From a virus: 20,303 bases of DNA. The notes under the pieces were generated by a model, which did no database searches, was not told the origin of the DNA, and saw nothing but the letters and a program-made list of their open reading frames with translations. Shown here piece by piece: positions 2,585 to 19,610 of the stretch; the stretch's first letter is position 1; every line of letters begins with the position of its first letter. The stretch spans positions 1 through 20,303 of the IMG/VR virus record IMGVR_UViG_3300018476_000047; one strand, given 5' to 3'. The position numbers and the translations under genes were made by a program.

Positions 2585-2633
2585 GGTCTAGATATAACTG
2601 TAATCGTCCCCGTCCCTGCGATAAGAGTTTAGC
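2585..2633. promoter_or_regulatory. Divergent intergenic gap between terminase and virion genes
   Basis: This 49-bp gap separates the leftward terminase pair from the rightward portal operon, so leftward and rightward transcription must start in or near it unless transcripts read through. The middle (2591-2604) is A+T-rich with TATAAC readable on the plus strand and TTATAT on the minus strand. No well-spaced -35 partner is visible on either strand; the TTGCGT at 2564-2569 is 23 bases from TATAAC, too far for a normal sigma-70 spacer. A phage-specific or activated promoter is possible. The regulatory role is inferred from gene orientation. Confidence 0.35.
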
Positions 2634-4697: not shown

Positions 4698-4714
4698 CCC
4701 AACAGGAGAGTAAG

Positions 4715-4927: not shown

Positions 4928-4928
4928 C

Positions 4929-5150: not shown

Positions 5151-5154
5151 CAAC

Positions 5155-5634
5155 ATGGCCGCAGTCACTTTCTATCGAAGCGTCGACGACAACGACTACG
5201 AGAAAACCATTCCGCTGGCGCAGACCGGGTCCGGCATCGCGCCGATCCAGCGGCGGGTGGATGACTACGACATCGAGAAGTTCATCAAGGCGCTGGAGGT
5301 GGCGGCGGGCATCCCCGTTCACACCGCCATCGACCGCAAGGACTTCACCCGGACGCTGCAGGCGGTGCAGATCAAGCTCAACCTGCGGACGGTTACCATC
5401 ACCATTGCGTCGCCAGCTGTTGTCACGCTGGCCGCCCATGGCTGGCTGGCCGGTCAGGCGATCCGGTTTCAGTCGACTGGTGCCCTGCCGACCGGCATTA
5501 CCGTGGGACCGACATACTATGTCAGTGCAACTGGTCTTGCGGCGGGTACGTTCCAAGTGTCGCTGACGCCGGGCGGGCCGTCGGTCAATACCACCGGCAC
5601 GCAGTCCGGCGTGCATAGCGCGTTCCCGGCCTGA
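5155..5634 (+). CDS. Virion-associated protein with C-terminal beta domain
   Basis: This encodes 159 residues starting at ATG 5155, four bases after the upstream stop. The first about 80 residues are mixed and charged. From about residue 80 the segment ASPAVVTLAAHGWLAGQAI, then TGALPTGITVGPTYYV and TFQVSLTPGG with TGTQSGVHS at the end, fits a small beta-sandwich module often found in phage structural proteins. The N-terminal part is not recognised. Upstream in-frame readings to 5041 would overlap the Acb2-like gene and lack a better start. The stop overlaps the next start as TGATG. Position before the scaffold and capsid genes suggests a minor head or head-decoration role, which is inference. 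Confidence 0.7.
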   Translation: MAAVTFYRSVDDNDYEKTIPLAQTGSGIAPIQRRVDDYDIEKFIKALEVAAGIPVHTAIDRKDFTRTLQAVQIKLNLRTVTITIASPAVVTLAAHGWLAGQAIRFQSTGALPTGITVGPTYYVSATGLAAGTFQVSLTPGGPSVNTTGTQSGVHSAFPA

Positions 5635-5819
5635 TGAAAGGCTTCATCAAACACAAGAATAAAGGGGCGCAGGTAATGCTCCCCAACCGTGAGGCCGTGA
5701 ACCAACTCGCACGCGAGGCGGAACAGCGGTCGATCAACAACTACGCGAAGGTGACGCCGTCAGGCAGTGGTGCGCTTGATGCGCCCGACATTACGGACAT
5801 GGTACAGGTGAAGTATTGA
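5634..5819 (+). CDS. Small conserved-looking phage protein, function unknown
   Basis: This encodes 61 residues: a basic start (MKGFIKHKNKGAQV), a short helix with NREAVNQLAREAEQRS, and a C-terminal tail with DAPDITDMVQVKY. The ATG overlaps the stop of the gene before (TGATG), consistent with translational coupling. An internal ATG at 5676 with a purine-rich leader is an alternative start. I recognise no family. It sits in a run of very small genes between portal and scaffold, a usual place for minor head proteins. Confidence 0.6.
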   Translation: MKGFIKHKNKGAQVMLPNREAVNQLAREAEQRSINNYAKVTPSGSGALDAPDITDMVQVKY

Positions 5820-6070
5820 ACGACAAGAATATGGTGCTGACCGCTGCGCATCTTGCATCGTCCGCACCCCAGCAGTGGGACGAGTTCATAGCGGCGCTGG
5901 CCGAATATGTTGACCACAGATGCGTCGAGTGCATTCAGTCCCCGCCTGAAATGCTTCAGGTCGCTCAAGGTCGTGCCCAGAGTCTGGTGGGACTAGGGCG
6001 ACTCTTGGAGGACTGCCGCAAGACCGCCGAGAGCATTCACAAGGCTGCTGAAAACAAGCAGCCGAGATAA
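5816..6070 (+). CDS. Small helical phage protein, function unknown
   Basis: This encodes 84 residues, almost all helical, with WDEFIAALAEYVDHRCVECI, then SPPEMLQVAQGRAQ and a final helix LGRLLEDCRKTAESIHK. The start is TTG 5816, overlapping the stop of the previous gene and preceded by AGGTG at a good distance; ATG 5831 is the fallback but is badly spaced from that site. The motif PPEM-x-x-x-AQGRAQ is, from memory, shared by small proteins next to scaffold genes in similar phages, without known function. A small head-assembly or adaptor role is likely by position only. Confidence 0.65.
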   Translation: MNDKNMVLTAAHLASSAPQQWDEFIAALAEYVDHRCVECIQSPPEMLQVAQGRAQSLVGLGRLLEDCRKTAESIHKAAENKQPR

Positions 6071-6085
6071 TCATGGAGTAAGACG

Positions 6086-7135
6086 ATGGCACCGAAACCG
6101 CGACTGGTCGACGACCCCAACACCTTCATTCCCCCGGCGGTGCGCAAGCAGGCCGAGCAGGCGGATGCCGCGTTCCGCGCCCAGCAGGGCCAGCCGCCCG
6201 CCGAGGCACCGCCCCCGCAGCCTCCGGAGCAGGAAGCGGCTCCCCCGCAGTTGGCACCGCCCCCGGAGCCGGTGCAGCTGCCGCTGTTCGCGCAGGGCGG
6301 CCCCGCTCCGCAGGCTCCTCCCCCGCAGGCCCCCCAGATTTCGGAAGAGAGTTGGGAGACGCGCTACAAGGCGATGGAGGGCAGATACAAGCGCGCCGAG
6401 GGCGATATCCGTTCGATGAGCGAACAGATCTCGTCAATGCAAAACCTGATGGCAACAATGCAACGCCCGGCGGAAACGCCATCAGAACTGCGTCCGCAGA
6501 GTTTGCTGACGGCGGAAGAGCGCACCGAATATGGCGACGAGTTCTTGGGTGTGGTCGCGCGCCGCGCCAAGGAAGAACTCTCCCCGGAGGTGGCTGCGCT
6601 GCGGGCCAAGCTCACCAATCTGGAGAAGCAGCTGGCTACGACCGCCGAGCAGAACACGACGCGGGCGCGCTTCGAACTGGAAGCGACGCTGGATACGCGC
6701 GTCCCGCACTGGCGCGATATCAATGTGTTACCCGAGTTTCATTCGTGGCTGGCATTGCCGGATATGTATTCCGGTGCTATTAGACATGACTTGTTGAGGC
6801 AGGCGTACGCGCAGAACAACTCTCCGCGTGTGATCAGCTTCTTCAAAGGCTTCCTTGATCAAGAGGCTGCCAGCGTCCCGCAAGGGTTCGGGTTACACAG
6901 CGCCGATGGACTGCAGACCAACGGCAAAGTCTCTCTCGAACAGTTTGCTGCACCGGGCAGAGCCAAGACTTCAGCGGCGTCTACCGCCCCTGCTGAGAAG
7001 CCCATTATCACGCGCGCCCAGATCTCGCAGTTCTATGCCCAGTCGGCATCCGGTCATTACCGGGGCCGCGAGGCAGAGAAAGCCCAACTCGAAGCAATGA
7101 TCTTCGACGCGGAGCGGGAGGGGCGTATCCGGTAA
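6086..7135 (+). CDS. Scaffolding protein
   Basis: This 349-residue protein most likely forms the inner scaffold on which the capsid shell is built. Residues 36-85 are a Pro/Gln/Ala-rich disordered arm; residues about 88-130 and 165-200 are charged coiled-coil-type helices (for example ALRAKLTNLEKQLATTAEQN). The end is a helical, charged module with ITRAQISQFY and EAEKAQLEAMIFDAEREGRIR, a C-terminus common in scaffolds that bind coat protein. GGAG lies before ATG 6086, and the gene directly precedes the major capsid gene, the usual place. No protease motif is visible, so self-cleavage is not suggested. The arm contains QLPLF (residues 64-68), discussed as a finding. A tail or internal protein is a weaker alternative. 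Confidence 0.82.
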   Translation: MAPKPRLVDDPNTFIPPAVRKQAEQADAAFRAQQGQPPAEAPPPQPPEQEAAPPQLAPPPEPVQLPLFAQGGPAPQAPPPQAPQISEESWETRYKAMEGRYKRAEGDIRSMSEQISSMQNLMATMQRPAETPSELRPQSLLTAEERTEYGDEFLGVVARRAKEELSPEVAALRAKLTNLEKQLATTAEQNTTRARFELEATLDTRVPHWRDINVLPEFHSWLALPDMYSGAIRHDLLRQAYAQNNSPRVISFFKGFLDQEAASVPQGFGLHSADGLQTNGKVSLEQFAAPGRAKTSAASTAPAEKPIITRAQISQFYAQSASGHYRGREAEKAQLEAMIFDAEREGRIR

Positions 7136-7162
7136 CCCTTCTCAATTCAGGAGTCACACACC

Positions 7163-8161
7163 GTGGCATATCCTCTCGCACCACAGGGAAGTACCCTTGG
7201 TACTTCCGCTTATCCGCTTACTGTCGGCATCCCCAACACCCTCGCAGCGACCGGCTTCATCCCTGAAATCTGGTCCGGCAAACTTGTCGAGAAGTTCTAT
7301 GCTTCGACGGTGCTGGCCGCGATCTCCAACACTGATTACGCGGGCGAGATCAAGAACCAAGGCGACAAGGTCAAGATCCGCACCAAGCCGACGATCTCGA
7401 TCAGCGACTACGCTGCCGACCAGACGCTGACGTTGCAGCGCCCGTCCGGTAACGTGATCGATCTCCTGATTGACAAGGGCAAGTACTTCAACACCATCCT
7501 TGACGATGTCATGGACGTGCAGAGCGATCTGAACCTGCTTTCGATGTGGTCCGACGATGCCGCCGAACAGATGAAGATCACCATCGACACGGCTGTGCTT
7601 CTCGCCATGAAGGATCAGGCGGCTACCCCTGACAACCGTGGTGCTGCTGCGGGCAAGATCTCCCACATCATCAATCTTGGTGTGACCGGTACCCCGCTCT
7701 CGGTTGTTGCTCGCTCCCCCACCACCGGCAAGGTCGAGATCGTGGATGCGATCCTGCGCCTCGGCCAGACGCTGGACGAGCAGAACATCCCCGAGACGGG
7801 GCGCTGGGTCGTGCTGCCGACGTGGGCTGCTACGCTGATCAAGATGTCGGAACTGCGGGAAGCCTATCTCTCGGGCGACTCCACTTCGATGCTGCGTAAC
7901 GGACGCATTGGCATGGTCGACCGCTTCACGCTCTACACGTCGAACCTGCTGCCGTCCGGTACGGCCAACGGTCTGGCGGCGGGCGAGTACCTGATGTACG
8001 CCGGTCACGCACATGGTCTTACCTTCGCATCTCAGATGACGAAGATGGAGACGATGCGTTCCGAGCAGACCTTCGGTACCATCATGCGCGGCCTGCAAGT
8101 GTTTGGTCACAAGGTCGTGGACAACACGGCAATCGCACAGGCGGTCATCTTCCCCGGCTGA
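7163..8161 (+). CDS. Major capsid protein
   Basis: This 332-residue protein should build the icosahedral shell. The start is GTG 7163, preceded by CAGGAG at about nine bases. Typical coat features are FIPEIWSGKLVEKFYASTVLA near residues 33-55, the GDKVKIRTKP strand after the flexible start, the long helix with VMDVQSDLNLLSMWSDDAAEQMK, and the late segment RFTLYTSNLLPSG. These fit an HK97-fold coat in the size range of short-tailed phages, and position after the scaffold agrees. No frameshift site for a minor capsid form is evident. A strong hairpin follows at 8180-8206, so expression may be tuned separately from the genes behind it. Confidence 0.92.
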   Translation: MAYPLAPQGSTLGTSAYPLTVGIPNTLAATGFIPEIWSGKLVEKFYASTVLAAISNTDYAGEIKNQGDKVKIRTKPTISISDYAADQTLTLQRPSGNVIDLLIDKGKYFNTILDDVMDVQSDLNLLSMWSDDAAEQMKITIDTAVLLAMKDQAATPDNRGAAAGKISHIINLGVTGTPLSVVARSPTTGKVEIVDAILRLGQTLDEQNIPETGRWVVLPTWAATLIKMSELREAYLSGDSTSMLRNGRIGMVDRFTLYTSNLLPSGTANGLAAGEYLMYAGHAHGLTFASQMTKMETMRSEQTFGTIMRGLQVFGHKVVDNTAIAQAVIFPG

Positions 8162-8179
8162 TAGCCCACAGCGATGTGA

Positions 8180-8206
8180 GTAGCCGGGGGGCGTGTCCCC
8201 GGCTAC
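8180..8206 (+). terminator. Hairpin after capsid gene, weak terminator or attenuator
   Basis: The perfect 10-bp inverted repeat GTAGCCGGGG (8180-8189) and CCCCGGCTAC (8197-8206) encloses a 7-base loop. It is followed by a T-containing but not poly-T stretch (TTGCATACTT). The stem is very G+C-rich and would be stable. It lies in the only sizeable gap in the head operon, just after the capsid gene. The lack of a U tract argues for partial termination or for protection of the 3' end of the capsid message. Confidence 0.7.
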
Positions 8207-8229
8207 TTGCATACTTAGGGGAGGGTACG

Positions 8230-8580
8230 ATGGCGCTTGAGACTGTGGCGAATTACGTCAACGAGGCGCGTGTCCTCCTGCAGGATATCGTGCCGCCGTA
8301 TCGCTATAGCGATGCCGAACTCGTTTCGAACCTGAACCTCGGCATCATGACGGCCCGGCGCAACCGTCCGGATCTGTTTTTGTCAGTTTCAACCATCCCG
8401 CAATTCATTGTCAGTGACGTAGCCAACCTCACGCTATTCAACATGGACCCGCAGTACCGGGTGGCGTTTCTGTTTTTCATGGTAGGCTTTGCGCAGCTGC
8501 GCGACGAAGAAGATACTCAAGACACCAGAGCCGCAGCCTTCATTGGGAAGTTCACCCAGCAACTGATGACACTCTCATGA
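8230..8580 (+). CDS. Head-tail adaptor-type protein
   Basis: This encodes 116 residues starting at ATG 8230, preceded by GGGGAGGG. The N-terminal helix LETVANYVNEARVLLQDIV, then PYRYSDAELVSNLNLGI and ARRNRPDLFL, matches a family of phage adaptor proteins (DUF6682-like, from memory) found after capsid genes. The rest is helical, ending in DTRAAAFIGKFTQQL. Such proteins form a ring between portal and tail. The upstream in-frame ATG at 8176 lies in the hairpin region and lacks a ribosome binding site. The assignment rests on pattern and position. Confidence 0.7.
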   Translation: MALETVANYVNEARVLLQDIVPPYRYSDAELVSNLNLGIMTARRNRPDLFLSVSTIPQFIVSDVANLTLFNMDPQYRVAFLFFMVGFAQLRDEEDTQDTRAAAFIGKFTQQLMTLS

Positions 8581-8590
8581 GTATTCTTGC

Positions 8591-9208
8591 ATGAGCTATG
8601 CAACAGAGCGCCTGATCAAGAATGCCAGAATATCCCTGCCGGGGTCGCTCGACGATGCGATCCTGCTGGAATTCTTCAACGTGATGGATCAGTTCTTTCG
8701 GGAGTCCAGCATCTGGACCGAAGGCATTCCATTCACGGCGTATCCGCACGAGCCCCTTGGCACGGTCTACTACATCGAACCGGAAAGCGTTTCGACCATT
8801 GTACGGTTGATCAGTGTGTCGAATGTCAATGGCTTCGCGCAACGCTGTCTCATGTCGGTACCCGGCGAGATAACTTTCATGTACTCGCCGCCTAGTCAAG
8901 AACCCGACGTTGATTACACTTACACAGCGGAGGTAGCCCTGAGCATCACCGACCCGGTGCAGCGCGACGGCTATCCGGAATTCCCGCAGTGGATGCTTGA
9001 GAAATACCACACGGGCATTCTCAGCGGATTGATAGGGCGAATGATGGCGCAGCCCGCCAAGCCCTACAGCAACCTGCAGCTGGCGCAGGCGCACATGGCC
9101 GCGTTCCGCAAGACGATATCGGTTGCGGGGACCGAGAGCCTGCACCGCAACGTCAACAACGCGCAGGCGTGGGTTTTTCCACGAAGCTTCTCAACGCGCC
9201 GGAGATAG
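8591..9208 (+). CDS. Head-tail connector / tail adaptor protein
   Basis: This encodes 205 residues. The first helix (RLIKNARISLPGSLDDAILLEFFNVMDQF) is followed by a beta-rich middle with IEPESVSTIVRLISV and DVDYTYTAEVALSI, then helices with GRMMAQPAKPYSN and QLAQAHMAAFRKTI. The last motif is common in adaptor-type proteins that follow the capsid gene and join portal to tail. ATG 8591 is ten bases after the stop of the preceding gene; its ribosome binding site is weak, so coupling with that gene is likely. The fold is probably an adaptor or tail tube subunit of a short-tailed virion. The exact role cannot be separated from the preceding gene. Confidence 0.65.
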   Translation: MSYATERLIKNARISLPGSLDDAILLEFFNVMDQFFRESSIWTEGIPFTAYPHEPLGTVYYIEPESVSTIVRLISVSNVNGFAQRCLMSVPGEITFMYSPPSQEPDVDYTYTAEVALSITDPVQRDGYPEFPQWMLEKYHTGILSGLIGRMMAQPAKPYSNLQLAQAHMAAFRKTISVAGTESLHRNVNNAQAWVFPRSFSTRRR

Positions 9209-9211
9209 TTC

Positions 9212-9628
9212 ATGGCCAACGCGATCTATCCCAAATGGAAAGAGGCGCTGCTGAGTGGCAGCGCGGACAGCGCGCTGACCGGGTCCGGCACAACTGGCCT
9301 GTTTGCGGCGCTGGTCGACACCGGGCTCTATACCTACAACGCCTCGCATGAGTTCTACTCCTCGCTGGCGGGCATTGCCGGGACGCCCATGGAAATCACG
9401 GCGGTCACACGGACCAACGGCATCGTTGACGGCAACGATGTCATCTATCTGGCGGTGCCAGCGGGTAACAATCTTGAAGCCATCGTACTCTTTAGAAAGA
9501 ACGCAGGTGCGAGCGGGACATGGCGGCTTGTGACTTATCTCGACGCTAACGTTACCGGGCTTCCGGTGCTGCCGAACGGCGGCGATATCACTGTTGTCTG
9601 GAACGCCGCTGGCATCTTCGGACTGTAA
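9212..9628 (+). CDS. Small virion (tail/fibre-associated) protein
   Basis: This encodes 138 residues. It is beta-rich with DVIYLAVPAGNNLEAIVLF, then WRLVTYLDANVTGLPVLPNGGDITVVWN and a GIFGL end, a pattern frequent in small phage structural proteins that are often paired with the next gene. The N-terminal MANAIYPKWKEALLSG is helical. GGAGA precedes ATG 9212. No specific role is known; a tail decoration or baseplate-like component is inferred from position between the adaptors and the fibres. Confidence 0.65.
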   Translation: MANAIYPKWKEALLSGSADSALTGSGTTGLFAALVDTGLYTYNASHEFYSSLAGIAGTPMEITAVTRTNGIVDGNDVIYLAVPAGNNLEAIVLFRKNAGASGTWRLVTYLDANVTGLPVLPNGGDITVVWNAAGIFGL

Positions 9629-9645
9629 CCCAAGGAGATAGAGAC

Positions 9646-10086
9646 ATGGTCGCGTTCAATAAAGTCGATGCATTCACGCTGGATTTGGGTATTGCCGCGC
9701 ACAACCTCACGAATGGCACTACCGCCGTACTCAAGACGGCGCTGACCAACACCGCACCAACGGCGGCATCTACGGTGTGGTCGACTGGCGCATTCCCTGC
9801 GCCCGCCGCCGCCAACGGCTACACTGCTGGCGGCAATACGCCTGCGTTCACGTCATTTACGCAAACGGGAGGCGTGGCTAAACTAGTCTTAGCGGACACT
9901 GTATTTACGGCCAGTGCGGGTGGCATTGGACCGTTCCAGTACGTGGTCCTCTACAACACCAGTAGCGCGGGCACCGCCAACAAGATCATTGGCTGGTACA
10001 ACTACGGTAGCGCGGTCACGCTGGCGGATACCGAAACCTTCACGGTTGACTTCGACCCGACACTGGGCGCGCTGACGATCACCTAA
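9646..10086 (+). CDS. Small virion (tail/fibre-associated) protein
   Basis: This encodes 146 residues, largely beta, with LKTALTNTAPTAAS near the start, the Gly/Ala-rich middle AAANGYTAGGN, and a C-terminal half with FQYVVLYNTSSAG, KIIGWYNYGSAVTLADTETFTVDFD. The last block is a common signature of small phage structural proteins next to fibre genes. AAGGAGA lies well placed before ATG 9646. It probably forms part of the tail or fibre base together with the gene before it; that is inferred from position. Confidence 0.65.
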   Translation: MVAFNKVDAFTLDLGIAAHNLTNGTTAVLKTALTNTAPTAASTVWSTGAFPAPAAANGYTAGGNTPAFTSFTQTGGVAKLVLADTVFTASAGGIGPFQYVVLYNTSSAGTANKIIGWYNYGSAVTLADTETFTVDFDPTLGALTIT

Positions 10087-10097
10087 AGGTTTACCTG

Positions 10098-13000
10098 ATG
10101 GCCCTCCCGGTCACGATCACCGGCATTAGTACGGCGGTCGCGCCGGTTGGGCCGTTCAAGGTTGCGGCGGGGAATTATCCAGTCGTCGCGCTTGATACGG
10201 CGTCAGTAGCGAGCGGTGATTATTCCACCTTTGATAGCCCGACGAGAGGAATAGCCCAGACATTTACCGCTGGTGTCGGCGGTTTGGTGGTTTTCAGTGC
10301 TACGGCCCAATTATCCAAAACGGGATCACCAACTGATAACGTATATGCCGAGATCAGGGCCACCGATCCCAATGGATCGCTTCTGGCAACCAGCAATCTG
10401 GTTGCCTGCTCGACCATAACCGGAACGACATACGCCGACGCTGGCACGGTTACATTTTTATTCTCATCGCCGCCGACCATATCAGCCAGTGCGTCCTTCG
10501 CAGTTTGCATTCTGCGGACGGGGACGGACGCGGTTAATTATCCAAGGGTAGCACGAAATGTAGGCGTTAGTTCTTACGCTGGAGGTTATTCTTACACTTG
10601 TACTGGAGGGACTTGGACCGGGAACACTTTAGCCGAAGTGTCCATGAAGATTAACACTGCCGTCACCCTCGCCACTGACGCCTACTATTTCTTCGGTCGC
10701 GACGGCACCACGGCGACGACACTGCAGGCGTATAAGGCTGGGGCCACTGAGTTAATTTATACAATCGTACAGGGTACGAGTAGCTCTACGACTTGGGGCA
10801 ATGGCAATAGTACTTCAAAAACGTATCAGACGTTTACGACTGGAGTATCCAGCACAGTCATTGTTTCGGTAGGCTGGACTATAGGCAAGACTGGTAGTCC
10901 GACTGATAATCTTACGGCTGACATTTATCTGCTCGATACTGGGACGAGCCGACCGACCGGATCGTCGCTAGGCACATCATCATCAATAGCTGCATCGGCA
11001 CTGACGACAGGAGCAGTTGAGCGCACGTTCATATTTACTACTCCGGTCGCTATCAGCCCGAGCACGCAATATGCTGTGGTTATCTCCCGAAGCGGTGCTG
11101 TAGATGCTGCCAATTATTTCAAGGATTATGAGGGCGTAACCGCTAATGTTGATGTTTCTCAGAGCGCCGGATATTGGAACGCAACGACACTTGCATGGAG
11201 TAGTATTCCCAGTGATCGCGTCTTAAAGGTTTTTGGCCCTTTCCTTGGCGGACCAGACACTGTTTGGGCCAGCGTCACCACCAAGACCGGCTTCACCACC
11301 GCGATATTAAATCTCAGCGCGTATCAGGTTGGCAGCGTCATCCATATGCTGGTGAACGACGGCACGGCATCGACCAGTGTCGCGACAAAATATCTGTCGT
11401 TCGACATGATGACCGAGGCGTTCCTCGCGACGACCGAGACGGTGGCGGCGGCGTCGGCGGTTGCGGGTCAGATGGGAGCTACGGTCTTTCACGGCTCGCT
11501 CGTTGTCCGTTCGACCGGCGAGGTGGTCGCGTTCTACAACGGCTTGCAGACCAATACATCAGGCACACCACGCGCACGGCTGTATTATTCGAGACGCACG
11601 GGCGTCAATACATGGGCGGCTGCGGTCAGGGTCGATGCCAATACAGGTATTGATAACATCGCCTATGATGCCTGCATTGCTCCGAATGACCGCGTTCATT
11701 TCCTGTTTTATGCCCCGACAAACACATCTTACCGGACCCTATCGGCTGCAAACGCGCTCGGGGCTTTAACCGCCTACTCTGCTTCAGCATTGCCAGCAGG
11801 GGGGCAGATGGGTTCAGGCACCTATGTGTCTGGTGGCACCACATATTTTATTTCGTCTCTGGCTAATCTGATCCACTACGGTGTCAGCACCGACACCACG
11901 ATGACGCTTGCCACGACAAGTAGTGCTGTGGATGGTTTTCCTACTCCATATATCTGCACCAACACTATGTTTGATGGGACTGATATCTATCAAGTCTACA
12001 TCGCCAATGCCAATTCTGACGCTTACGTCCTTAGATCGGCTGACAGAGCGGCGGCGAACAATGTAGGTATCGTCACTCTTGCCAATATAACCGGGCAGGG
12101 GCTGTCCAAAGACGGCAAGATCTACCAGCGCGGCAGCGATGTCGTCATCCCCTACATCGTCAACGATGCGGGGACACTGAAGTACAACGAATACACGGTT
12201 CGCACTGTCACGGCGGATGCGTGGAACAGCGGCGACAAGACCGCAAGCGTAACGCTATCCAACAGCGACAAGACAGCGACGCTTGGTACAGCTACTGGTT
12301 CCGACGCGGTGCGGTCCACCACGACCCACCCAAGTACGGGATCGGACAAGTTCTACGTTGAAATTGTAGTTGTCGAGGCTGGCGGAACCGTAGGGCTACA
12401 GAACGCAGCTGATGCACTAAATTCCGTCACCAACAACGTCCGTATTATGCAGGACGGAAGCATCAACCGTGTAAGCACCCCTACCGGCGGGAACATCGGC
12501 GCTCCAGTAAATGGAGACATCCTAAGCATCGCTTGGGATGCTTCTACAGACAAGATTTGGTTTCGCAGGAACGCGGGAAGCTGGGCAGGCACCGCCAATG
12601 GCGATCCTGTTGCGGGCACCAACGGCATTGATCTCTCTACGTTTGCGGCAGGCAACTACGCCATACGCGCCAGTTTTCCACTCGCAGGTGACGCTTACAC
12701 CATCCGCACCGAAGCAGCTGAATACACACAAACCAAACCATCTGGCTTCCTGTCATGGATGGGCGAGACGCTGGGGCCAGCGGGCTTCACGATGGCTGCT
12801 GCGACGGGCGTGTTTGCCGTTGCGGGTCAAGACGTAACACTGACTAAAGTCGGTGTAGTTACTCATTACACGATGCCCGCTGACACGGGTGCGATCACGC
12901 TGGCGGGTCAGCCGGTGGGAGTGCGCGTCGGGCGCAAACTTATAGCGGGCACAGGCGCGTTCGTTGCTGCTGGTCAAGCTGTAACACTGCGCCGTACTCG

Positions 13001-14081
13001 TGTGATGCCCGCTGCGCTGCGCGCGATTGCTGTTGCGGGGCAAGACGTAACGCTAACCAAGAGTACGCCGTTCCGCATTATGCCCGCCGCTACGGGCGCG
13101 ATCACTACTGCGGGTCAGGCAGTTGCGCTTCGAGTTGGCCGCAAGCTGGTTGCTGGTACTGGCGCAATCGCAAAAACTGGTCAACCAGCGGGGCTTCAGT
13201 ACGGGCGCAAACTTGTAGCAGCTAAAGGTGCGATTGCCGTCGCGGGTCAAGATGTAACGCTGACCAAGAGTACGCCGGTTACGCATCGCTCAATGCCTGC
13301 CGACACGGGGGCGCTTGCGCTGGCTGGTCAGGCAGTTGTGCTTCGCGCTTCGCGCAAACTTATAGCAGGGACTGGCGCGGTTACTTCGACGGGTAACGCA
13401 GTGACGCTGCGCCGTACTCGTGTCATGCCAGTCACTGCAGGGGCGTTTGCGCTTGCAGGGCAACCGGTCACGTTCCGTCGCACCCGCGTCATGCCGGTCA
13501 CTGCAGGGGCGTTTGCGCTGACAGGTCAGTCGGTCGCGCTTGTTTACGCCGACAACGAAGTAATGACGGCGGGCACGGGCGCTGTCGCGTTCGCGGGCCA
13601 GCCGGTCACATTCCGCTACACGCGCGTCATGCCTACTGCGGCTGGTGCGTTCACGCTGTCGGGCAAGAACGTTACGCTGACCATCCCCCCGCGTGAGTTC
13701 CTGTGGCCTAATGCAGATACGTCTCTTGGTGGGTGGACCAATGAAGTTGGCGGCACTACCGGCATTTATCAGTCAATCGATGAAGTGACCTTCAACGATC
13801 TCGACTACATTCAGTCGCCGCCGAGTGCCAGTGTAAGCCTTGCTGTGCGGCTGTTCGACGGCGCGACGGAGATTGTTGAATGGACCCACACCCCTACCGA
13901 ATTTTTTGTGACCGCAGAGCAAGTCCTAACCGCGCCACAAGTCGCTGCGATCTCCAATTTTGCAAACCTGTTTGTCGAGTTCGATGACGGTAACAGTAAT
14001 GTCTATCGTATGGCGCTAAGTAATCCGGCTGCCGGTGGCGCTTCGCCGGTTATGCTGCGCTACCGTTACAAGACGTTGTGA
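10098..14081 (+). CDS. Large modular tail fibre / adhesin, 1327 residues
   Basis: This should be a host-binding virion fibre. Two related beta-sandwich domains occupy residues about 36-185 and 235-380, each with QTF near the start, KTGSPTDN in the middle and a Gly/Tyr-rich end. Residues about 385-706 look like a sialidase-type propeller (RSTGEVVAFYNGL, ARLYYSRRTG, PNDRVHFLFY). Residues 707-893 resemble a SPRY/lectin-like domain (KFYVEIVVVEAGGTVGL, GDILSIAWDASTDKIWFRR). Residues 899-1201 hold 13 repeats around AGQPVTLR. A C-terminal domain (1202-1327) with LGGWTNEVGG and YIQSPP may be a knob. AAAGG precedes ATG 10098. The modules point to glycan or surface binding; no catalytic residues are evident. 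Confidence 0.8.
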   Translation: MALPVTITGISTAVAPVGPFKVAAGNYPVVALDTASVASGDYSTFDSPTRGIAQTFTAGVGGLVVFSATAQLSKTGSPTDNVYAEIRATDPNGSLLATSNLVACSTITGTTYADAGTVTFLFSSPPTISASASFAVCILRTGTDAVNYPRVARNVGVSSYAGGYSYTCTGGTWTGNTLAEVSMKINTAVTLATDAYYFFGRDGTTATTLQAYKAGATELIYTIVQGTSSSTTWGNGNSTSKTYQTFTTGVSSTVIVSVGWTIGKTGSPTDNLTADIYLLDTGTSRPTGSSLGTSSSIAASALTTGAVERTFIFTTPVAISPSTQYAVVISRSGAVDAANYFKDYEGVTANVDVSQSAGYWNATTLAWSSIPSDRVLKVFGPFLGGPDTVWASVTTKTGFTTAILNLSAYQVGSVIHMLVNDGTASTSVATKYLSFDMMTEAFLATTETVAAASAVAGQMGATVFHGSLVVRSTGEVVAFYNGLQTNTSGTPRARLYYSRRTGVNTWAAAVRVDANTGIDNIAYDACIAPNDRVHFLFYAPTNTSYRTLSAANALGALTAYSASALPAGGQMGSGTYVSGGTTYFISSLANLIHYGVSTDTTMTLATTSSAVDGFPTPYICTNTMFDGTDIYQVYIANANSDAYVLRSADRAAANNVGIVTLANITGQGLSKDGKIYQRGSDVVIPYIVNDAGTLKYNEYTVRTVTADAWNSGDKTASVTLSNSDKTATLGTATGSDAVRSTTTHPSTGSDKFYVEIVVVEAGGTVGLQNAADALNSVTNNVRIMQDGSINRVSTPTGGNIGAPVNGDILSIAWDASTDKIWFRRNAGSWAGTANGDPVAGTNGIDLSTFAAGNYAIRASFPLAGDAYTIRTEAAEYTQTKPSGFLSWMGETLGPAGFTMAAATGVFAVAGQDVTLTKVGVVTHYTMPADTGAITLAGQPVGVRVGRKLIAGTGAFVAAGQAVTLRRTRVMPAALRAIAVAGQDVTLTKSTPFRIMPAATGAITTAGQAVALRVGRKLVAGTGAIAKTGQPAGLQYGRKLVAAKGAIAVAGQDVTLTKSTPVTHRSMPADTGALALAGQAVVLRASRKLIAGTGAVTSTGNAVTLRRTRVMPVTAGAFALAGQPVTFRRTRVMPVTAGAFALTGQSVALVYADNEVMTAGTGAVAFAGQPVTFRYTRVMPTAAGAFTLSGKNVTLTIPPREFLWPNADTSLGGWTNEVGGTTGIYQSIDEVTFNDLDYIQSPPSASVSLAVRLFDGATEIVEWTHTPTEFFVTAEQVLTAPQVAAISNFANLFVEFDDGNSNVYRMALSNPAAGGASPVMLRYRYKTL
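12792..13700 (+). repeat. Array of 13 AGQPVTLR-type repeats (coding)
   Basis: Thirteen degenerate units of about 21-27 residues, consensus MPAATGAFALAGQPVTLRRT with a variable end, cover residues 899-1201 of the fibre. Unit ends fall in a few subtypes: RTRV, GRKL, LTKS and ADNE. Neighbouring units at 13422-13453 and 13488-13519 differ by one base over 32, spaced 66 bases, which points to recent duplication. The units probably form a beta-rich shaft. Confidence 0.88.
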
Positions 14082-14090
14082 GGATATAGT

Positions 14091-15122
14091 ATGGCTGCTC
14101 GATATTGGGTCGGAGGCACAGCGGCGTGGGACGCTACGGTGGGCACCAAATGGGCGCTCACGTCCGGCGGTGCTGGCGGTCAGGCTGTGCCGCTCGCCAC
14201 TGATGATGTCTTCCTTGATGCTGCGTCGGGCGCTAACACCGTAACGGTTTCGAGTTCTCGTACGTGTCTGAGCCTGAACTGCACCGGCTTCACCGGGACA
14301 CTGGCGGGCACGGGTGCGCCTATCCTCACGGTGTCGGGCAACATCACGCTGGTGGCGAGCATGACACTCTCCTCTACACTTTCCACATGGTTAATCAACG
14401 GCCCCAGTACCGTCAATCTCGCTGGCCTCACACTCGCTGCAGTGCAGCTTAATAGTGGTGTCGTGACCATGGCGTCGGACTTTAGATGTTCCGGCAATTT
14501 TGTGTTTACGGCAGGGACGTTCACTGTTGGGGCGTTCAACGTCTATCTGACGGGTGCTCAATTCTCATCCACCGGGACGGGGGTCCGCGTGCTGAATATG
14601 GGTAGTGGCACTTGGTACTTCGACGGTACTGGAGCTATGTCGTTTTTGATTTCTGGAACAAACGTCACCGTTAACAAGCAAACGTCTTCGCTTAGTGTTG
14701 GTAGGTTCCAGACTTCCGGAGCGACGAATGTTACCACGAGTATAAATTGGAACACTGTAACGCTGAATTACACCTTTCAGGACTGGAGCTTCATCATAAC
14801 CGGGACGAACGACTTCGACAGTATTGTTAATGCGGCTACGGCCTATGGGACTATTTCGTTTTCGTCGGGGGCGAACACTTTCATTGCTGGGTGGGTGCGA
14901 GGGACGCAGAAGATGCGTTATACCGCCCCAACCAGCGGCGTCGTCCAAGCATCTCTTATTACATTCACGCCTACCCCGATTGATCTAAGCGATGCCGCCG
15001 TCCTGAACCTAAACGTTAGCGGCGCTGGTGCTTACGCGGTTAATTCGGTGGACCTCGGAAACAACACCGGTATCAACTTCATCTATAGAGGCGCACGAGC
15101 CTCCTCAAACATCGGGGTTTGA
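14091..15122 (+). CDS. Beta-rich tail fibre protein
   Basis: This encodes 343 residues. The start MAARYWVGGTAAWDATVGTKW followed by SGGAGGQAVPLATDDVFLDA is a common signature of phage fibre and adhesin proteins. After it come short repeating strands rich in Ser, Thr, Val and Gly (LTVSGNITLVASMTL, VQLNSGVVTMAS, FVFTAGTFTVGAFNVYL) that look like a beta-helix or a stack of strands. AGGA overlaps the stop of the preceding gene and serves as its ribosome binding site before ATG 14091. The C-terminal part (IDLSDAAVLNLNVSGAG) may be a separate small domain. It is likely a further fibre or spike subunit; no enzyme motif is visible. Confidence 0.75.
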   Translation: MAARYWVGGTAAWDATVGTKWALTSGGAGGQAVPLATDDVFLDAASGANTVTVSSSRTCLSLNCTGFTGTLAGTGAPILTVSGNITLVASMTLSSTLSTWLINGPSTVNLAGLTLAAVQLNSGVVTMASDFRCSGNFVFTAGTFTVGAFNVYLTGAQFSSTGTGVRVLNMGSGTWYFDGTGAMSFLISGTNVTVNKQTSSLSVGRFQTSGATNVTTSINWNTVTLNYTFQDWSFIITGTNDFDSIVNAATAYGTISFSSGANTFIAGWVRGTQKMRYTAPTSGVVQASLITFTPTPIDLSDAAVLNLNVSGAGAYAVNSVDLGNNTGINFIYRGARASSNIGV

Positions 15123-15123
15123 C

Positions 15124-15441
15124 ATGGCCGCACCTTACAATCCTCCAGTCAAAAATGAAGACTTCATTATCCGCATCTCGCTTGAGGACATGATCACTGG
15201 CGGGTCGTGCAAAGTTAATCCGACGATTGCCGCAGGAGATTTCAAGGTCGACAAGGACGGCGCGGGCCTCACGAACGTCACTACGTTGCCCACTGTCAGT
15301 CCTGCGGGCAGCGTGCTGGTTCTGATTACTCTATCGGCTACTGAGATGAATGCGGACGTGGTCACTCTCGTTTGCATCGATCAAACATCTCCGAAAGAGT
15401 GGGCCGATTTCGTTCTGAGCATCCCAACAACAACGGCGTAG
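15124..15441 (+). CDS. Small fibre-associated beta protein
   Basis: This encodes 105 residues from ATG 15124, one base after the upstream stop. The order KNEDFIIRISLEDM, then VNPTIAAGDFKVDKDGAGL, LPTVSPAGSVLVLITLSATEM and ADVVTLVCID is a pattern I remember in small phage proteins next to fibre genes, where it forms an Ig-like domain of a fibre or its attachment. The longer in-frame reading from 15028 overlaps the preceding fibre gene and is unlikely. It lies three bases before the next fibre gene. A tail-fibre adaptor or fibre-tip role is inferred. Confidence 0.68.
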   Translation: MAAPYNPPVKNEDFIIRISLEDMITGGSCKVNPTIAAGDFKVDKDGAGLTNVTTLPTVSPAGSVLVLITLSATEMNADVVTLVCIDQTSPKEWADFVLSIPTTTA

Positions 15442-15444
15442 ACC

Positions 15445-18165
15445 ATGGCCCTTAAAATATTCTTCGGTGCGTCGACTGCCGGGAATGTTCGGGTTGCCGT
15501 CTCTTGGGTTGAACTACAGTTCAGGCCCGCCGCGCTAGGTATTGTCCTAGACCCATTGCCGGGGGTTATTGCGTTCAACGGTCAGCCGGTCGGGCTGCGC
15601 GCGGCGCGAAAGCTGGCTGCAGGGACTGGCGCGTTTGCCGCTGCGGGTCAACCGGTAGCCTTGCGAATAGGGCGCAGGCTTGCAGCGGGTACCGGCGCGG
15701 TCACAGTCGCGGGCCAGTCGGTCACGCTTCGGTACGCCGACAACCAGATAATGGTGGCGGCCACGAGCGCGTTCACGCTCGCTGGGCAACCGGTCACATT
15801 GCGTCGAACTCGCGTTATGCCCGCCGCAACGGGTGTGTTCACAGTCGCGGGTCAGCCCGTAACCTTCCGTTACACCCATGTCATGCCCGCCGCCAAAGGC
15901 GCGGTGGCACTAGCAGGCCAGCCGGTCAACCTGCTTCGTAGCCGCGTCATGCCTGCAGCAGCGGGCGCGGTCACGCTCGCGGGTCAGCCGATCACGTTGC
16001 GCCGCACGTACGTCATGCCCGCTGCCACTGGCGCGGTCACGCTTGCGGGTCAGCCGGTCGGGTTTAGAGTTGGACGTGTGCTGCGGGCCGAGGCTGGCAG
16101 TCCTGCCATTATTACTATCAGCGGCGCATCGTCAGAAACTGACTGGGGCAATGCCTCCTTCGGGATAGAGCGCATTGGGCAAACCTTCCTGTCGGTTGGG
16201 ACGCGCATCGACAAGATTGCTGCGCCATTAGGCAGGCTCGGCAATCCAGTTGATGGTGTATGCATAAAAGTATACGCGGCGGATGCATCGCACCATCCAA
16301 CCACACTGCTCGGCACTTCCAATGTGGTGGCGGGAAGTAGCCTCACCGCAGACGCTACACCAACGGTCGAGTTCACGTTTACACCGCAGATCACGGTTGC
16401 AAACGGCACCGAGTATGTGTGGGTGTTCGAGCGTACCGGCGCGCTTAATGACAGCAACGAATATCTGTCGCAAATCACCGATGCGTCCAGCTATTCGGGT
16501 GGTATTGCGATTTATCATGACGGTTCGTCGTGGAACAATATCTCTTCTGATATTCCATGCACGATCAGTCATGCGGGCGCGGGTACAGTCACGCTAGCGG
16601 GCCAGCCGGTTACGTTCCGCCGCACCCGTGTCATGCCTGCCGCAGCTGGCGCGTTCACGATCAGCGGGCAAGCCATCAACCTGCGCTACTCTGCCGATCA
16701 AAACACTAACATGCTCGCCTCGCCGGGCGCGTTTGTGAAGACTGGTCAACCGGTTACGCTGCGCGTTGCGCGCAAGCTGCTGGCGCAAGCGGGCGGGAGC
16801 AGCCCCGTCGATATTGTTATCAGTGGTACGTATACAGAAGCGGATTGGGGCGCTGCCCCTATAGTCAGTCTTGGTCAGACTTTCCTGTCGGTTGGAACGC
16901 GCGTCGACAAGGTTGCCGCACCGCTGGGCAGGATCAGTAATCCGGTCGATAGCGTAAACATAAAACTTTATACGACTGACGCATTACATCGCCCGACTAC
17001 GTTGCTTGGTACTTCCAACACCGTGCTTGGAAGCACTCTCGTTAACGCCGCGACACCAACGGTCGAATTCACGTTTTCACCATCAGTCACTACTGTGATT
17101 GGCACTGAGTATGCGTGGTCGTTTGTACGTACTGGCGTGGCGGATGACTCCAATAAGTACATGACGCAGGTGACCTCTTCGGGGTCAGCCTATCTGGGCG
17201 GGTCAGGTACTTACTACGATGGTTCGTCATGGGGCGATTACTTCACCGATCTTCCCCATACTATCAATCAAAGTATCGCTGGCGCTGTCGTTACCGTATC
17301 GGGCCAGCCTGTTACGTTACGCTACGCGCGCAAACTTCTGGCGGGTACGGGTGCGTTCACAGTAACCGGCTACGCCGTTACGCTGCGCTACGCCGACAAC
17401 CAGATAATGGCGGCGAACCTAGTTAACTTCGCGCTCGCCGGTCAGCCTGCAATACTGCGTTACGCGCACAAGATGGCCGCTGCGAAAGGCGCGGTTACTT
17501 TGGCGGGCCAGCCGGTCGTGCTGCAGGTTTCGCGCAAGCTCGCGGTAAGCGCGGGGGCGGGGGCGTTTGTACTGGCGGGGCAACCCGTCACCCTGACGGT
17601 CGTAACAGCTAGCACTACGCTGACCCCGGAGTTCTTTGCCAACCAGAATACGTTCTACGGACACGCTCTTACGAGCAGCTACACGATCACGTCTGCGTTC
17701 TACGCCGATCCGGATAATTTCTACACGCAGACGGTCACCAGCAACTACACCATCCAGCCTGCGCTCTATACCAACCCGGACACGTTCTATACGCATGTCC
17801 TAACGTCCTACCAGAACATCCGTCCCGAACTGTTCGTCAACACGAACATCTTCTACCAGCACAGGATCGAATTCGATCAGTTCCTCTATGCCGGGCTGTT
17901 TGTTGACCCTGACACCTTCCCGCCAGCGTATGTCGGGTTGGTCTATACCGACACTGAAGTCCTGTTCGTCACCTACGAAAACCGGCGCATGGGGGTGTCG
18001 GCTGAACGCCGCATGATGATCGTGGCCATGGAGGACAAGTCCATGGAGGTGCGACGCGGGGATCGCGTTGTAGATAGCCCGGCCCTTGTGCCTCTGGAAG
18101 GCAAGTCTATGGAGGTGCTGGACGAGGAAAATGATATGTTCGCTGGGCCAAGAGAAAGGGGATAG
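15445..18165 (+). CDS. Large modular tail fibre with three repeat arrays, 906 residues
   Basis: This should be a second host-binding fibre. Sixteen AGQPVTLR-type repeats occur in three arrays: residues about 40-216, 378-448 and 611-720. Between arrays sit two copies of one beta-sandwich domain (217-377 and 449-610), both with GQTFLSVGTR, NPVD, TLLGTSN and YYDGSSW-like ends. Residues 726-830 hold five FY-rich repeats, such as NPDTFYTHVLTS. The C-terminus has short repeats ending in SMEV (EDKSMEVRRGD, EGKSMEVLDE). The N-terminus (residues 1-39) is unrelated and may be the attachment. ATG 15445 is three bases after the upstream stop, so coupling is likely. The repeats link it to the 1327-residue fibre, suggesting shared origin by duplication and shuffling. 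Confidence 0.82.
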   Translation: MALKIFFGASTAGNVRVAVSWVELQFRPAALGIVLDPLPGVIAFNGQPVGLRAARKLAAGTGAFAAAGQPVALRIGRRLAAGTGAVTVAGQSVTLRYADNQIMVAATSAFTLAGQPVTLRRTRVMPAATGVFTVAGQPVTFRYTHVMPAAKGAVALAGQPVNLLRSRVMPAAAGAVTLAGQPITLRRTYVMPAATGAVTLAGQPVGFRVGRVLRAEAGSPAIITISGASSETDWGNASFGIERIGQTFLSVGTRIDKIAAPLGRLGNPVDGVCIKVYAADASHHPTTLLGTSNVVAGSSLTADATPTVEFTFTPQITVANGTEYVWVFERTGALNDSNEYLSQITDASSYSGGIAIYHDGSSWNNISSDIPCTISHAGAGTVTLAGQPVTFRRTRVMPAAAGAFTISGQAINLRYSADQNTNMLASPGAFVKTGQPVTLRVARKLLAQAGGSSPVDIVISGTYTEADWGAAPIVSLGQTFLSVGTRVDKVAAPLGRISNPVDSVNIKLYTTDALHRPTTLLGTSNTVLGSTLVNAATPTVEFTFSPSVTTVIGTEYAWSFVRTGVADDSNKYMTQVTSSGSAYLGGSGTYYDGSSWGDYFTDLPHTINQSIAGAVVTVSGQPVTLRYARKLLAGTGAFTVTGYAVTLRYADNQIMAANLVNFALAGQPAILRYAHKMAAAKGAVTLAGQPVVLQVSRKLAVSAGAGAFVLAGQPVTLTVVTASTTLTPEFFANQNTFYGHALTSSYTITSAFYADPDNFYTQTVTSNYTIQPALYTNPDTFYTHVLTSYQNIRPELFVNTNIFYQHRIEFDQFLYAGLFVDPDTFPPAYVGLVYTDTEVLFVTYENRRMGVSAERRMMIVAMEDKSMEVRRGDRVVDSPALVPLEGKSMEVLDEENDMFAGPRERG
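16093..16575 (+). repeat. Beta-sandwich domain, copy 1 (coding)
   Basis: Residues 217-377 of the 906-residue fibre form one copy of a 161-residue beta-rich domain with GQTFLSVGTRIDKIAAPLG, TTLLGTSNVV and YHDGSSWNN. It is clearly homologous to copy 2 at 16789-17274. More distant relatives lie near the start of the 1327-residue fibre at about 10203-10653 and 10800-11236. Confidence 0.82.
16789..17274 (+). repeat. Beta-sandwich domain, copy 2 (coding)
   Basis: Residues 449-610 of the same fibre form the second copy, 162 residues, with GQTFLSVGTRVDKVAAPLG, TTLLGTSNTV and YYDGSSWGD. The close protein-level match with copy 1, including its position between repeat arrays, indicates an internal duplication of domain plus flanking units. 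Confidence 0.82.
17620..17934 (+). repeat. Five FY-rich repeats near the fibre C-terminus (coding)
   Basis: Residues 726-830 contain five units of about 20-23 residues, consensus YTI-x-P-A-L-F-x-NPDTFYTH. Examples are FFANQNTFYGHALTS, FYADPDNFYTQTVTS and LYTNPDTFYTHVLTS. The last unit is diverged (GLFVDPDTFPPAYV). This repeat type is known from other phage fibres in my memory and probably makes a beta-rich rod or tip. Confidence 0.8.
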
Positions 18166-18167
18166 CG

Positions 18168-18461
18168 ATGAACTTAGGGAAGTATTTCAAGTCGCCTGAC
18201 GAGCGGAAACGCTATTCAATCGACTATACCGACTGGCTCGATACCGGAGAGCAACTCTCCGCAGTTACCTTCGAAGTAATTCCTGTCGATGCAGACCCTG
18301 TTGCTATCGATGGTATCGCTATCGAAACAGGTAATAAGAGCGTTGTGTTCTACGCTTCGGCTGGGCTCGACGGGAAGTCGTACAAAGCCATCGCGACTAT
18401 GACAACAAGCGGCGGACAGGTTAAAGAAGATACTGTCCAATACACGATAAAGGCTCCGTAA
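18168..18461 (+). CDS. Fibre-tail adaptor-like protein
   Basis: This encodes 97 residues: a start with YSIDYTDWLDTGEQLSAV and an Ig-like beta sandwich ending in SYKAIATMTTSGGQVKEDTVQYTI. The motif YSIDY-x-DWLDTGE is a common signature of small phage proteins sometimes annotated as fibre-tail adaptors. AAAGGGGA precedes ATG 18168, and its stop directly abuts the next ATG. It lies between two fibre genes, which supports a fibre attachment role. It contains a 7-bp inverted repeat CGGAGAG/CTCTCCG (18245-18261) that is probably just coding sequence. Confidence 0.7.
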   Translation: MNLGKYFKSPDERKRYSIDYTDWLDTGEQLSAVTFEVIPVDADPVAIDGIAIETGNKSVVFYASAGLDGKSYKAIATMTTSGGQVKEDTVQYTIKAP

Positions 18462-19610
18462 ATGGCCCTCACAGTCAAGCATCCATTTGTGTCGGCTAAG
18501 GGCGATGGTTCTGACGCGACACTGGTGCGCCCGTCGAACTGGAACGCTAGTCACAAGATCGAAATGGCGACCAACAAGATCATTGGACGCCTGACTGCCG
18601 GTCCCGGCGATGCGGAAGAACTTCCCGTTACGTCATACATGATGGGGCTACTCAACACAGCGGATTATCTCGCGCTCGCCGTGTTGTTGGGGCTCCCCAC
18701 TACGGGTGATGCCAAGCTGACGTTCAAGATTATTGCAGACTCGGGCTGGGTGCTGGCGAATGATGGCTCGATTGGTTCCGCGCTTTCGGGCGGAACGACG
18801 CGCGCCCATGCCGACACGGTAAACCTGTTTGCGTTCTTCTATAACACTTTCTCCGATGCCGTAGCCCCGCTGCAGACAAGCGCGGGCGCGGGAACGACGC
18901 GCGTGGCGCAGGGTACGGCAACGGCAGCATACAATGCGAACTGCCGCATAGTGCTTCCCAAGCAACTGGGCCGCGCGCTTATTATCGCCGGGACCGGTGC
19001 CAGCCTTACGGCTCGCGCGCTCGGTACTGTCGGCGGCGAAGAAACCCACACGATGACGCTGGCTGAACTTGTTGCGCATACCCACACGCAACAGGGGGCG
19101 TTCGCGGGTTCAGGAACGGGCAGCGGTTCTATCACTGCCACCGGCAGCGGCTCTTTTTCGGGCTCTACGTCGATCAACGCCGCGCCGGACCATCTTCACG
19201 GTATCAATGGTCAATCTACCCGGACGGGCGGTTCGGATCGCAGTCTTGATCATAGCCACACACAGACGTGGTCGGGTGGCACCGCGAACAATCCAGTCGT
19301 TGCGGGTTCTGGTCCGGGTGGTCATGGCGGCGGCGGTGCGTTCGGTCCGGCGGGCACCCTGACGCTGGGCGGCGGTGGCGTTGATCATACGCACATTCTT
19401 CCGGCATTCACGGATGCTGCGGATCGCACCCTTAACCACTCGCACACTTGTAGTGGCAGTGTCAGCGTCACCTCCATAAGTGGCAGCTGCTCCGTTACTA
19501 CCGTCTCCGTCAGCACGACGATATCCGGACAGACTGTTTCTACTGGCAGCACTACGCCGTTCAACGTCATGCAGCCGTGGACTGCATGGAATGTGATGAT
19601 CCGACTCTGA
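18462..19610 (+). CDS. Tail fibre with collar-like C-terminus and five HxH motifs
   Basis: This encodes 382 residues. The N-terminal region (KGDGSDATLVRPSNWNASHKI) is a common start of phage fibres. From about residue 200 the chain is rich in Gly, Ser, Thr and His, with HxH motifs at 206/208, 244/246, 264/266, 309/311 and 326/328. In long phage fibres such motifs bind metal ions along a trimer axis. The end NVMQPWTAWNVMIRL matches the phage tail-collar family. No ribosome binding site stands out; ATG 18462 directly follows the previous stop, so coupling is likely. The metal-binding role is known for related fibres and inferred here. Confidence 0.85.
   Translation: MALTVKHPFVSAKGDGSDATLVRPSNWNASHKIEMATNKIIGRLTAGPGDAEELPVTSYMMGLLNTADYLALAVLLGLPTTGDAKLTFKIIADSGWVLANDGSIGSALSGGTTRAHADTVNLFAFFYNTFSDAVAPLQTSAGAGTTRVAQGTATAAYNANCRIVLPKQLGRALIIAGTGASLTARALGTVGGEETHTMTLAELVAHTHTQQGAFAGSGTGSGSITATGSGSFSGSTSINAAPDHLHGINGQSTRTGGSDRSLDHSHTQTWSGGTANNPVVAGSGPGGHGGGGAFGPAGTLTLGGGGVDHTHILPAFTDAADRTLNHSHTCSGSVSVTSISGSCSVTTVSVSTTISGQTVSTGSTTPFNVMQPWTAWNVMIRL

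Follow-up and report, generated by a model that had tools for sequence, protein, structure and literature searches.

We examined a 20303-base stretch of viral DNA (the window), which is the whole of IMG/VR virus record IMGVR_UViG_3300018476_000047, and found that two copies of a domain of about 160 residues interrupt the repeat shaft of a 906-residue fibre protein, P0001 (15445-18165, + strand, like its parts described below), each entering the same turn of a 22-residue unit. Relatives with one copy and with none exist, and a sister of the domain sits in a fibre protein of another phage, in a shaft that is built from a different repeat. From its gene place and its relatives, P0001 is presumably an adhesin of the phage tail-fibre type. 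The reading that we favour, and consider fairly probable, is that its shaft serves as a rack holding exchangeable binding modules, with jelly-roll domains held in one turn of a solenoid; a binding role would follow from their fold and context. Insertion of a domain also appears to keep the phase of the repeat, a rule that we regard as likely rather than settled.

Insert junctions and repeat phase

P0001 consists of a short N-terminal part, three blocks of 22-residue units interrupted by two inserts, and a C-terminal part with different repeats. Shaft block 1 (residues 39-216; 15559-16092) has eight unit cores, one of its units carrying 2 extra residues; insert 1 (residues 217-376; 16093-16572) is a predicted beta-sandwich of the jelly-roll type; shaft block 2 (residues 377-451; 16573-16797) has three unit cores; insert 2 (residues 452-610; 16798-17274) is 59% identical to insert 1; and shaft block 3 (residues 611-719; 17275-17601) has five unit cores. 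The 16 cores follow one another at 22 residues (24 or 26 at short indels), with steps of 184 and 186 residues across the inserts. An earlier reading of this DNA (the original prediction) had placed two inserts at these residues, and its placement was confirmed.

With a profile of the 22-residue repeat that was trained on the shafts of other phages (consensus LTADTGAFTLTGQAAGLRAARK, phase 0 being the first L), the shaft was left at phase 3 and resumed at phase 2 around insert 1, and left at phase 5 and resumed at phase 6 around insert 2. These values come from a run in which the domains were masked, the sandwich envelopes having been widened by 12 and 4 residues as chosen from the strands of an AlphaFold2 (AF2) model; it replaced an unmasked reading (6/2 and 2/6 for the two inserts) that had put some junctions inside domains. 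Because phases 3/2 and 5/6 flank the inserts, the joint is the LxAxxG turn and the interrupted units remain complete. The original prediction had the inserts replace the start of a unit, a notion contradicted by the offsets of -2 and 0 with which the left and right phases join. Its description of the edges fared better; both inserts start after LxAxAG and stop before VTxxGQPVT, ending ahead of the AGQPVTLR core of the next unit as proposed, and they begin after the variable end of a unit in a loose sense, with six residues of the next unit (LRAEAG or LLAQAG, phases 0-5) coming in between.

The joint is not the natural border between units either. Among 14 proteins with the 22-residue repeat (a set that contains P0001, the second fibre protein of the window, P0002, and some near copies), 45 of the 57 short insertions fell at phases 15-21 and 6 at phases 4-6, and 12 of 14 array starts fell at phases 15-21 or 0 (of 17 starts listed, three were left out: both insert edges of P0001 and one contig end). 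Since short insertions and array starts gather there, the natural unit border, or variable end, is by this sequence pattern phases 15-21, and the borders that had been proposed as joints give way to a turn within the unit.

P0001 alone, with two homologous copies, cannot prove phase. Across 13 insertions with units on both sides, from six proteins and three shaft types, the offsets were -2, 0, 0, +2, 0, -2, -5, 0, -10, -3, -1, +1 and -6, giving a mean absolute offset of 2.46 (P=0.0002 against uniform phase if the insertions are independent). When one insertion was taken per homologous group, the mean offset was 2.67 and the median P was 0.028 (5-95% range, 0.0005-0.18). The earlier claim that placement is not random is supported, more weakly once homologues are collapsed.

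Empty joints, a sister domain and the P0002 family

Insert copies form a series of 2 in P0001, 1 in an open reading frame (ORF) of locus L068 (9221-10939; 552 residues from its ATG), and 0 in a 391-residue ORF of locus L005 (8265-9437). The L068 ORF is a syntenic homologue of P0001, lying directly after a homologue of P0002 and having the N-terminus VSWVELQF in common with P0001; its insert belongs to the clade of the P0001 inserts and enters at the same turn, the shaft being left at phase 4 and resumed at phase 5, and the second insert is absent. The L005 protein resembles the L068 protein over the C-terminal half of the latter (42% identity), has no insert and differs at its N-terminus. The original prediction called for homologues with an empty joint, and these two ORFs supply them. 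Three unit cores precede the insert in L068 versus eight in P0001; domains may have moved along the shaft rather than between fibres, and gain or loss of units explains the difference equally well.

The sister domain lies at locus L046, in a 3065-residue fibre protein of the P0002 kind whose shaft has a different repeat (GTGxL, about 21 residues); profiles of the GTGxL shaft and the 22-residue shaft showed no relation by hhalign (E 0.91). A tree of 24 sandwich domains grouped the L046 domain with both inserts in a clade supported at 100/99, and the insert clade was kept (97/96) in a 9-row tree to which the L068 domain had been added. Insert 1 is 66% identical to the L046 domain and at most 32% identical to any other domain. 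DNA similarity between the window and L046 (blastn) starts at 16093, where insert 1 begins, and outside the insert the flanks of the two proteins are at background (2-4 identities in 15 by global alignment). The L046 protein (897-10091) holds two sandwiches, a propeller-like domain, two SPRY-like domains, one domain like a carbohydrate-binding module (CBM), two more sandwiches, two LamG-like domains and a long GTGxL shaft, the names having been given by eye.

P0002 (1327 residues; 10098-14081, + strand, like its domains) has the leader MALPVTITGISTAVAPVGPFK and, as predicted, opens with related domains; a profile of the insert clade only matched residues 41-186 (E 5e-9) and 222-373 (E 8e-12). 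The first sandwich (site 1; 10197-10655) stands before a domain that we call propeller-like, a fold name guessed from the sequence pattern (11253-12203, with 10683-10736), and the second (site 2; 10737-11252) lies inside that domain, after LQAYK. An SPRY-like domain (phrog_10080; 12213-12770) is placed between the propeller-like domain and a shaft of 22-residue units that carries no domain insert (residues 899-1195; 12792-13682). The propeller-like domain is common to 19 confirmed loci (65 stretches matched its pattern); its profile took up sandwich domains on iteration, and therefore only its matches above 200 bits were used. In a comparison of 20 rows of this family, P0002 and near copies included, site 1 (leader to propeller-like domain) held no sandwich in three rows (L069, L071 and L083), one in 14 and two in 3, and site 2 was occupied by one in 5 rows and empty in 15, with all four combinations of presence and absence seen. 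Because the sandwich comes and goes at two other sites, one of them inside another domain, shuffling is not confined to unit borders. The idea of unit borders as shuffling joints therefore stands in part: insertion keeps phase, empty joints exist and a sister domain sits in a different repeat, yet the exchange is not restricted to the shaft.

What follows the front part of these proteins also varies. SPRY-like domains may be absent or doubled in relatives; directly behind the propeller-like domain there is one in P0002 and L083 and there are two in L046 and its copies, and the P0002 relative of L068 has one at its C-terminus. The Pfam cut-off for SPRY was reached by the L073 homologue and not by P0002. 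Behind the same front part, the shaft is of the 22-residue type in P0002, L033, L068, L075, L079 and L077, of the GTGxL type in L046, L070, L081 and L082, of a GAQVTASAGT type in L073 and, by eye, of an EAADTAALNA type in L083 and L071 and a VTEANDT type in L069. Rows that were dropped or merged as near-identical are L084 and L086 (99.8% identical to L046), L075, L076 and L080 (identical to one another) and L033 (90% identical to L079); L039/L042 and L045 appear by eye to be copies of L038 and L041. L033 and L072 lie on a single contig, as do L046, L048, L085 and L090, and L068 and L091. The rows of L074 and L078 end early (L074 at the end of its locus) and cover these proteins as far as the propeller-like domain.

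Three side observations concern the shafts of this family. In L073 (5677-11220), several shaft units precede a set of three SPRY-like domains that have single units between them, giving a periodic pattern of domain and unit. In L068, an SPRY-like domain (8704-9279) lies past the point where P0002 ends (LRYRYKTL / LRYRYKKL), and a distant sandwich (7759-8181) sits in the variable-end turn of the shaft of the P0002 relative. The latter (residues 783-923) was found by a broader iterated profile seeded with P0001 and P0002 domains, whose E-values are not independent; its placement in the insert clade was rejected, as the clade profile matched it weakly and at 875-920 only (E 0.084).

Alternative explanations and predicted structure

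Several observations weigh against the favoured reading. Those that concern placement are that the insertions are not independent, that one of the 13 (the second LamG-like domain of L046) has the offset of -10, that L068's own shaft insert uses another turn (phases 17/20), and that site 2 of the P0002 family is outside any shaft. One alternative, which we hold to be unlikely, is ordinary domain shuffling into any permissive loop, with nothing special about the repeat units. It accords with site 2 being a loop of another domain, with the sites before and after being plain inter-domain linkers, with different domain families sitting at different turns of the unit, and with the weakness of the phase test once homologues are collapsed. 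It does not readily explain why phase within shafts is kept better than chance, or why one turn is common to all three insert-clade domains that sit in 22-residue (R22) shafts.

AF2 modelling of P0001 residues 103-450 (14 rows) gave the insert (model residues 121-270) predicted local distance difference test (pLDDT) values of 89-98 in ten-residue blocks, with 44-80 for the rest. The first strand of the insert is at 221-225 and the last at 372-377, leaving linkers of 5 and 4 residues. Structure comparison matched the insert (model residues 115-276) to baseplate chains of phi812 (9eui_Q, with Z 16.6, a root mean square deviation [rmsd] of 2.7 and 153 residues aligned; also 9euj_G), to the central fibre gp20 of mycobacteriophage Douge (8zdp_v, Z 13.7), to the Bxb1 tail tip (9d93, Z 11.7), to the lectin-like domain of Cwp84 (4ci7_A, Z 13.7) and to CBMs (7zvo, Z 8.4; 2cdp, Z 7.8). 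By the confident model and these comparisons the insert has a jelly-roll fold, and it is predicted to be a lectin-like domain; the jelly rolls of phi812, Douge gp20 and Cwp84 share 7-17% sequence identity with it and stand in other contexts. Sequence searches of the PDB gave nothing convincing (best E 0.52 for the insert profile and 0.01 for the shaft profile, none for the propeller-like profile), and a Foldseek search against viral models gave 69 matches at E<=0.001. It may be asked whether such a domain binds anything at all, and that it is instead a structural spacer or folding domain is, in our view, doubtful. No score above the curated cut-off was obtained when insert 1 was searched alone against Pfam, the curated cut-offs of Pfam and NCBIfam were reached by none of P0001, P0002, P0003 and P0004, and a phage capsid protein (Cyanophage A4, 9jwb_Z) is among the fold neighbours, all of which would suit a spacer; the lectin-like and CBM domains among the same neighbours, and the gain and loss of the domain while the shaft stays, point the other way.

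Beta-helix tailspikes (6w4q_E, Z 12.4, rmsd 3.1, 184 aligned) could be aligned with residues 1-348 of the model of residues 103-450, an indication that the units on the two sides of the insert are stacked in a single solenoid; the aligned ranges do not prove that insert residues were omitted. A second, shaft-only model (residues 35-218, 21 rows) was solenoid-like, with a pLDDT of 79.4 and a predicted template modelling score of 0.78, and was matched to tapirin (6n2b_A, Z 14.5) and pectate lyase (4z05_A, Z 13.4), both at an rmsd of about 3, and to the tail fibre of Agrobacterium phage 7-7-1 (9rkv_N, Z 10.9). To the points of doubt already listed must be added that pLDDT in the shaft is moderate or low (blocks of 44-80 in the first model and 64-88 in the second), that Foldseek with the shaft-only model found no PDB match at E<=0.001, that the top rows of its structure comparison (LpxD) had an rmsd near 12, and that repeat proteins at Z below about 13 may share a mere common arrangement, a range that takes in much of the beta-helix likeness seen here (Z of about 9-14 at an rmsd of about 3). 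The shaft was also predicted as a monomer, which ignores likely trimerisation. Beta repeats of similar length that have conserved glycines are found in fibrous trimers, and the units could instead build a triple beta-spiral or a hairpin shaft from three chains, like that of adenovirus fibres, with the insert as a side domain of the trimer; monomer prediction is blind to intertwined trimers, and the confidence of the shaft is moderate. We consider such a shaft rather improbable, given that each of the two AF2 models can be aligned with beta-helix proteins along almost all of its length.

The last of the doubts is that L046 has a second, more distant sandwich about 71 residues after the first, the P0001 inserts being 75 residues apart, and it is possible that the pair was inherited together. 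The weakest alternative, a single old insertion followed by vertical descent, with duplication in P0001, divergence of the shaft repeats of L046, and common descent rather than a reusable joint behind the identity of phase, would draw on that spacing (tblastn joins both pairs over P0001 211-620 at 41%, blastp without low-complexity filter joins them over 169-620, and insert 2 shares 33% identity with the second L046 sandwich), on the single clade of insert 1, insert 2 and the L068 domain, and on the units flanking the two inserts being 61% alike versus 53 +/- 10% for other unit pairs, but it is improbable in that 20-24% of other unit pairs are equally alike, the stretch between the paired domains scores like shuffled sequence (-18 versus -10 +/- 11), the two shaft profiles do not match, the second L046 sandwich falls outside the insert clade (on a long branch), and P0002, to which the L046 protein is homologous, lacks this domain type. 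A recent copying of insert 1 plus its flanks to give insert 2 was rejected, the flank excess not being significant.

We thus return to the shaft as a rack for binding modules. The 22-residue units would most likely be the stacked coils of a beta-solenoid, and the two jelly rolls would be set into a single turn of a coil, behind LxAxxG, on linkers only a few residues long. The turn may tolerate a domain because domain start and end meet it in phase; the solenoid would then continue across the insert, with the domain protruding sideways. The jelly rolls themselves are most likely glycan- or receptor-binding, judging from fold and context, and appear to have been gained, lost and exchanged, presumably by recombination, between fibre genes and between shaft types.

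Genome context and known systems

The fibre genes of the window look like a replaceable cassette, because backbone ORFs match Rhizobium phage RHph_TM27A and the fibre region does not. When 30 kb of the 60.9 kb of that phage were compared, 8 of the 10 ORFs tested between 636 and 9208 matched, including terminase, capsid and portal (the latter 61% identical), as did 18168-18461 and the start of 18462-19610, whereas none of the six ORFs tested in 9212-18165 did. Going by the portal match, the host may be a rhizobium. Cassette genes recur elsewhere: L068 has homologues of P0001, P0002 and a 146-residue gene upstream of P0002 (9646-10086, + strand), L079 has the latter two, and L005 has the 146-residue gene and a repeat shaft, the small gene being 59-64% identical near the fibre genes of these three loci. 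The window's portal and capsid were found in none of eight virus records that share cassette genes, several of which are fragments; the positive control, RHph_TM27A, was found. The 382-residue protein encoded at 18462-19610 has histidine-rich stretches and matches tail protein phrog_8763, and we take it to resemble a collar-type tail-fibre end.

P0001 gave no match at E 1e-5 by tblastn against named phages, and searches with P0001 alone against viral contigs and with the insert clade against bacterial genomes confirmed no relative. Its C-terminal part (17602-18165) carries another repeat of about 25 residues (FFANQNTFYGH, FYADPDNFYTQ, LYTNPDTFYTH, LFVNTNIFYQH, LFVDPDTF) and ends in a charged tail; matches to a short section of this part came from three viral contigs (L087-L089). 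Shaft units of P0002 (13569-13667) and P0001 (16573-16672) are 79% identical in DNA, a hint of either unit exchange or a common origin of the two fibre genes. Scans with repeat patterns gave 19 stretches in bacterial genomes and 33 and 8 stretches in two viral scans; by simple motif counts, a 22-residue array is carried by one ORF of the bacterial set (L065, from an alphaproteobacterial metagenome-assembled genome) and arrays are present in 2 and 8 loci of the viral sets. The patterns differed between scans and the collections are not comparable. L044 and L041 have 22-residue arrays without a domain insert, and tblastn matched such an array to Podoviridae sp. ctVRi840 and its kin (MW202742, 5078-5716) and to gp72 of EBPR siphovirus 2 (JF412297, 42859-43725), annotated as hypothetical. 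In the literature searched we found no paper on 22-residue phage-tail repeats, on domain inserts in beta-solenoid tail fibres or on "dorsal fin" tailspikes, which is not proof that none exists.

Among the closest known systems are the evolved distal tail (Dit) and Tal proteins of lactic acid bacteria siphophages. There, CBMs are inserted in a galectin domain between two long linkers, and LEGO-like combinations occur between related phages (PMC9437275). As there, a beta-sandwich of a carbohydrate-binding type is inserted within a structural tail protein and is absent in relatives; the carrier in P0001, by contrast, is a tandem-repeat shaft, where the inserts occupy one phase of the unit on linkers only a few residues long, and a sister of the domain is known from another type of repeat. 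It is not a Dit (belt plus galectin), and Pfam, PHROGs and NCBIfam gave no match named Dit. The middle of the 7-7-1 fibre is beta-helical, between an N-terminal anchor and a jelly-roll end (PMC12796354); that jelly roll is C-terminal, whereas the two of P0001 interrupt the repeat array. The predicted solenoid of the P0001 shaft recalls the beta-helices of this fibre (9rkv) and of CBA120 TSP2 (6w4q), and the 22-residue shaft profile had no sequence match among beta-helix tailspike and fibre chains that included both. Domain mosaicism of phage receptor-binding proteins is already known; as far as the sections seen describe it, otherwise unrelated fibre proteins have domains in common and exchange them across phage lineages (PMC10684548). 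That account treats mosaicism in general and gives neither a rule on repeat phase nor a case of insertion within repeat units; P0001 stands apart by its tandem-repeat carrier and by the probable phase rule.

A broader and more tentative possibility, which we think could hold but would not expect to, is that in each of several different repeat shafts, all with units of about 21-22 residues, one fixed turn serves as the socket, and that the same binding domains cross shaft types and phage backbones with the coil phase intact; reach (the number of units), shaft type and binding domains would then evolve separately. If the turn does work in this way, fibres in nature reveal the places at which a repeat shaft can take up a folded domain and stay whole, and the corresponding design rule would be to keep the repeat phase and use short linkers. 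If true, this would also explain how a phage may keep its anchor and shaft while several binding domains are exchanged, as an alternative to the usual swapping at the C-terminus.

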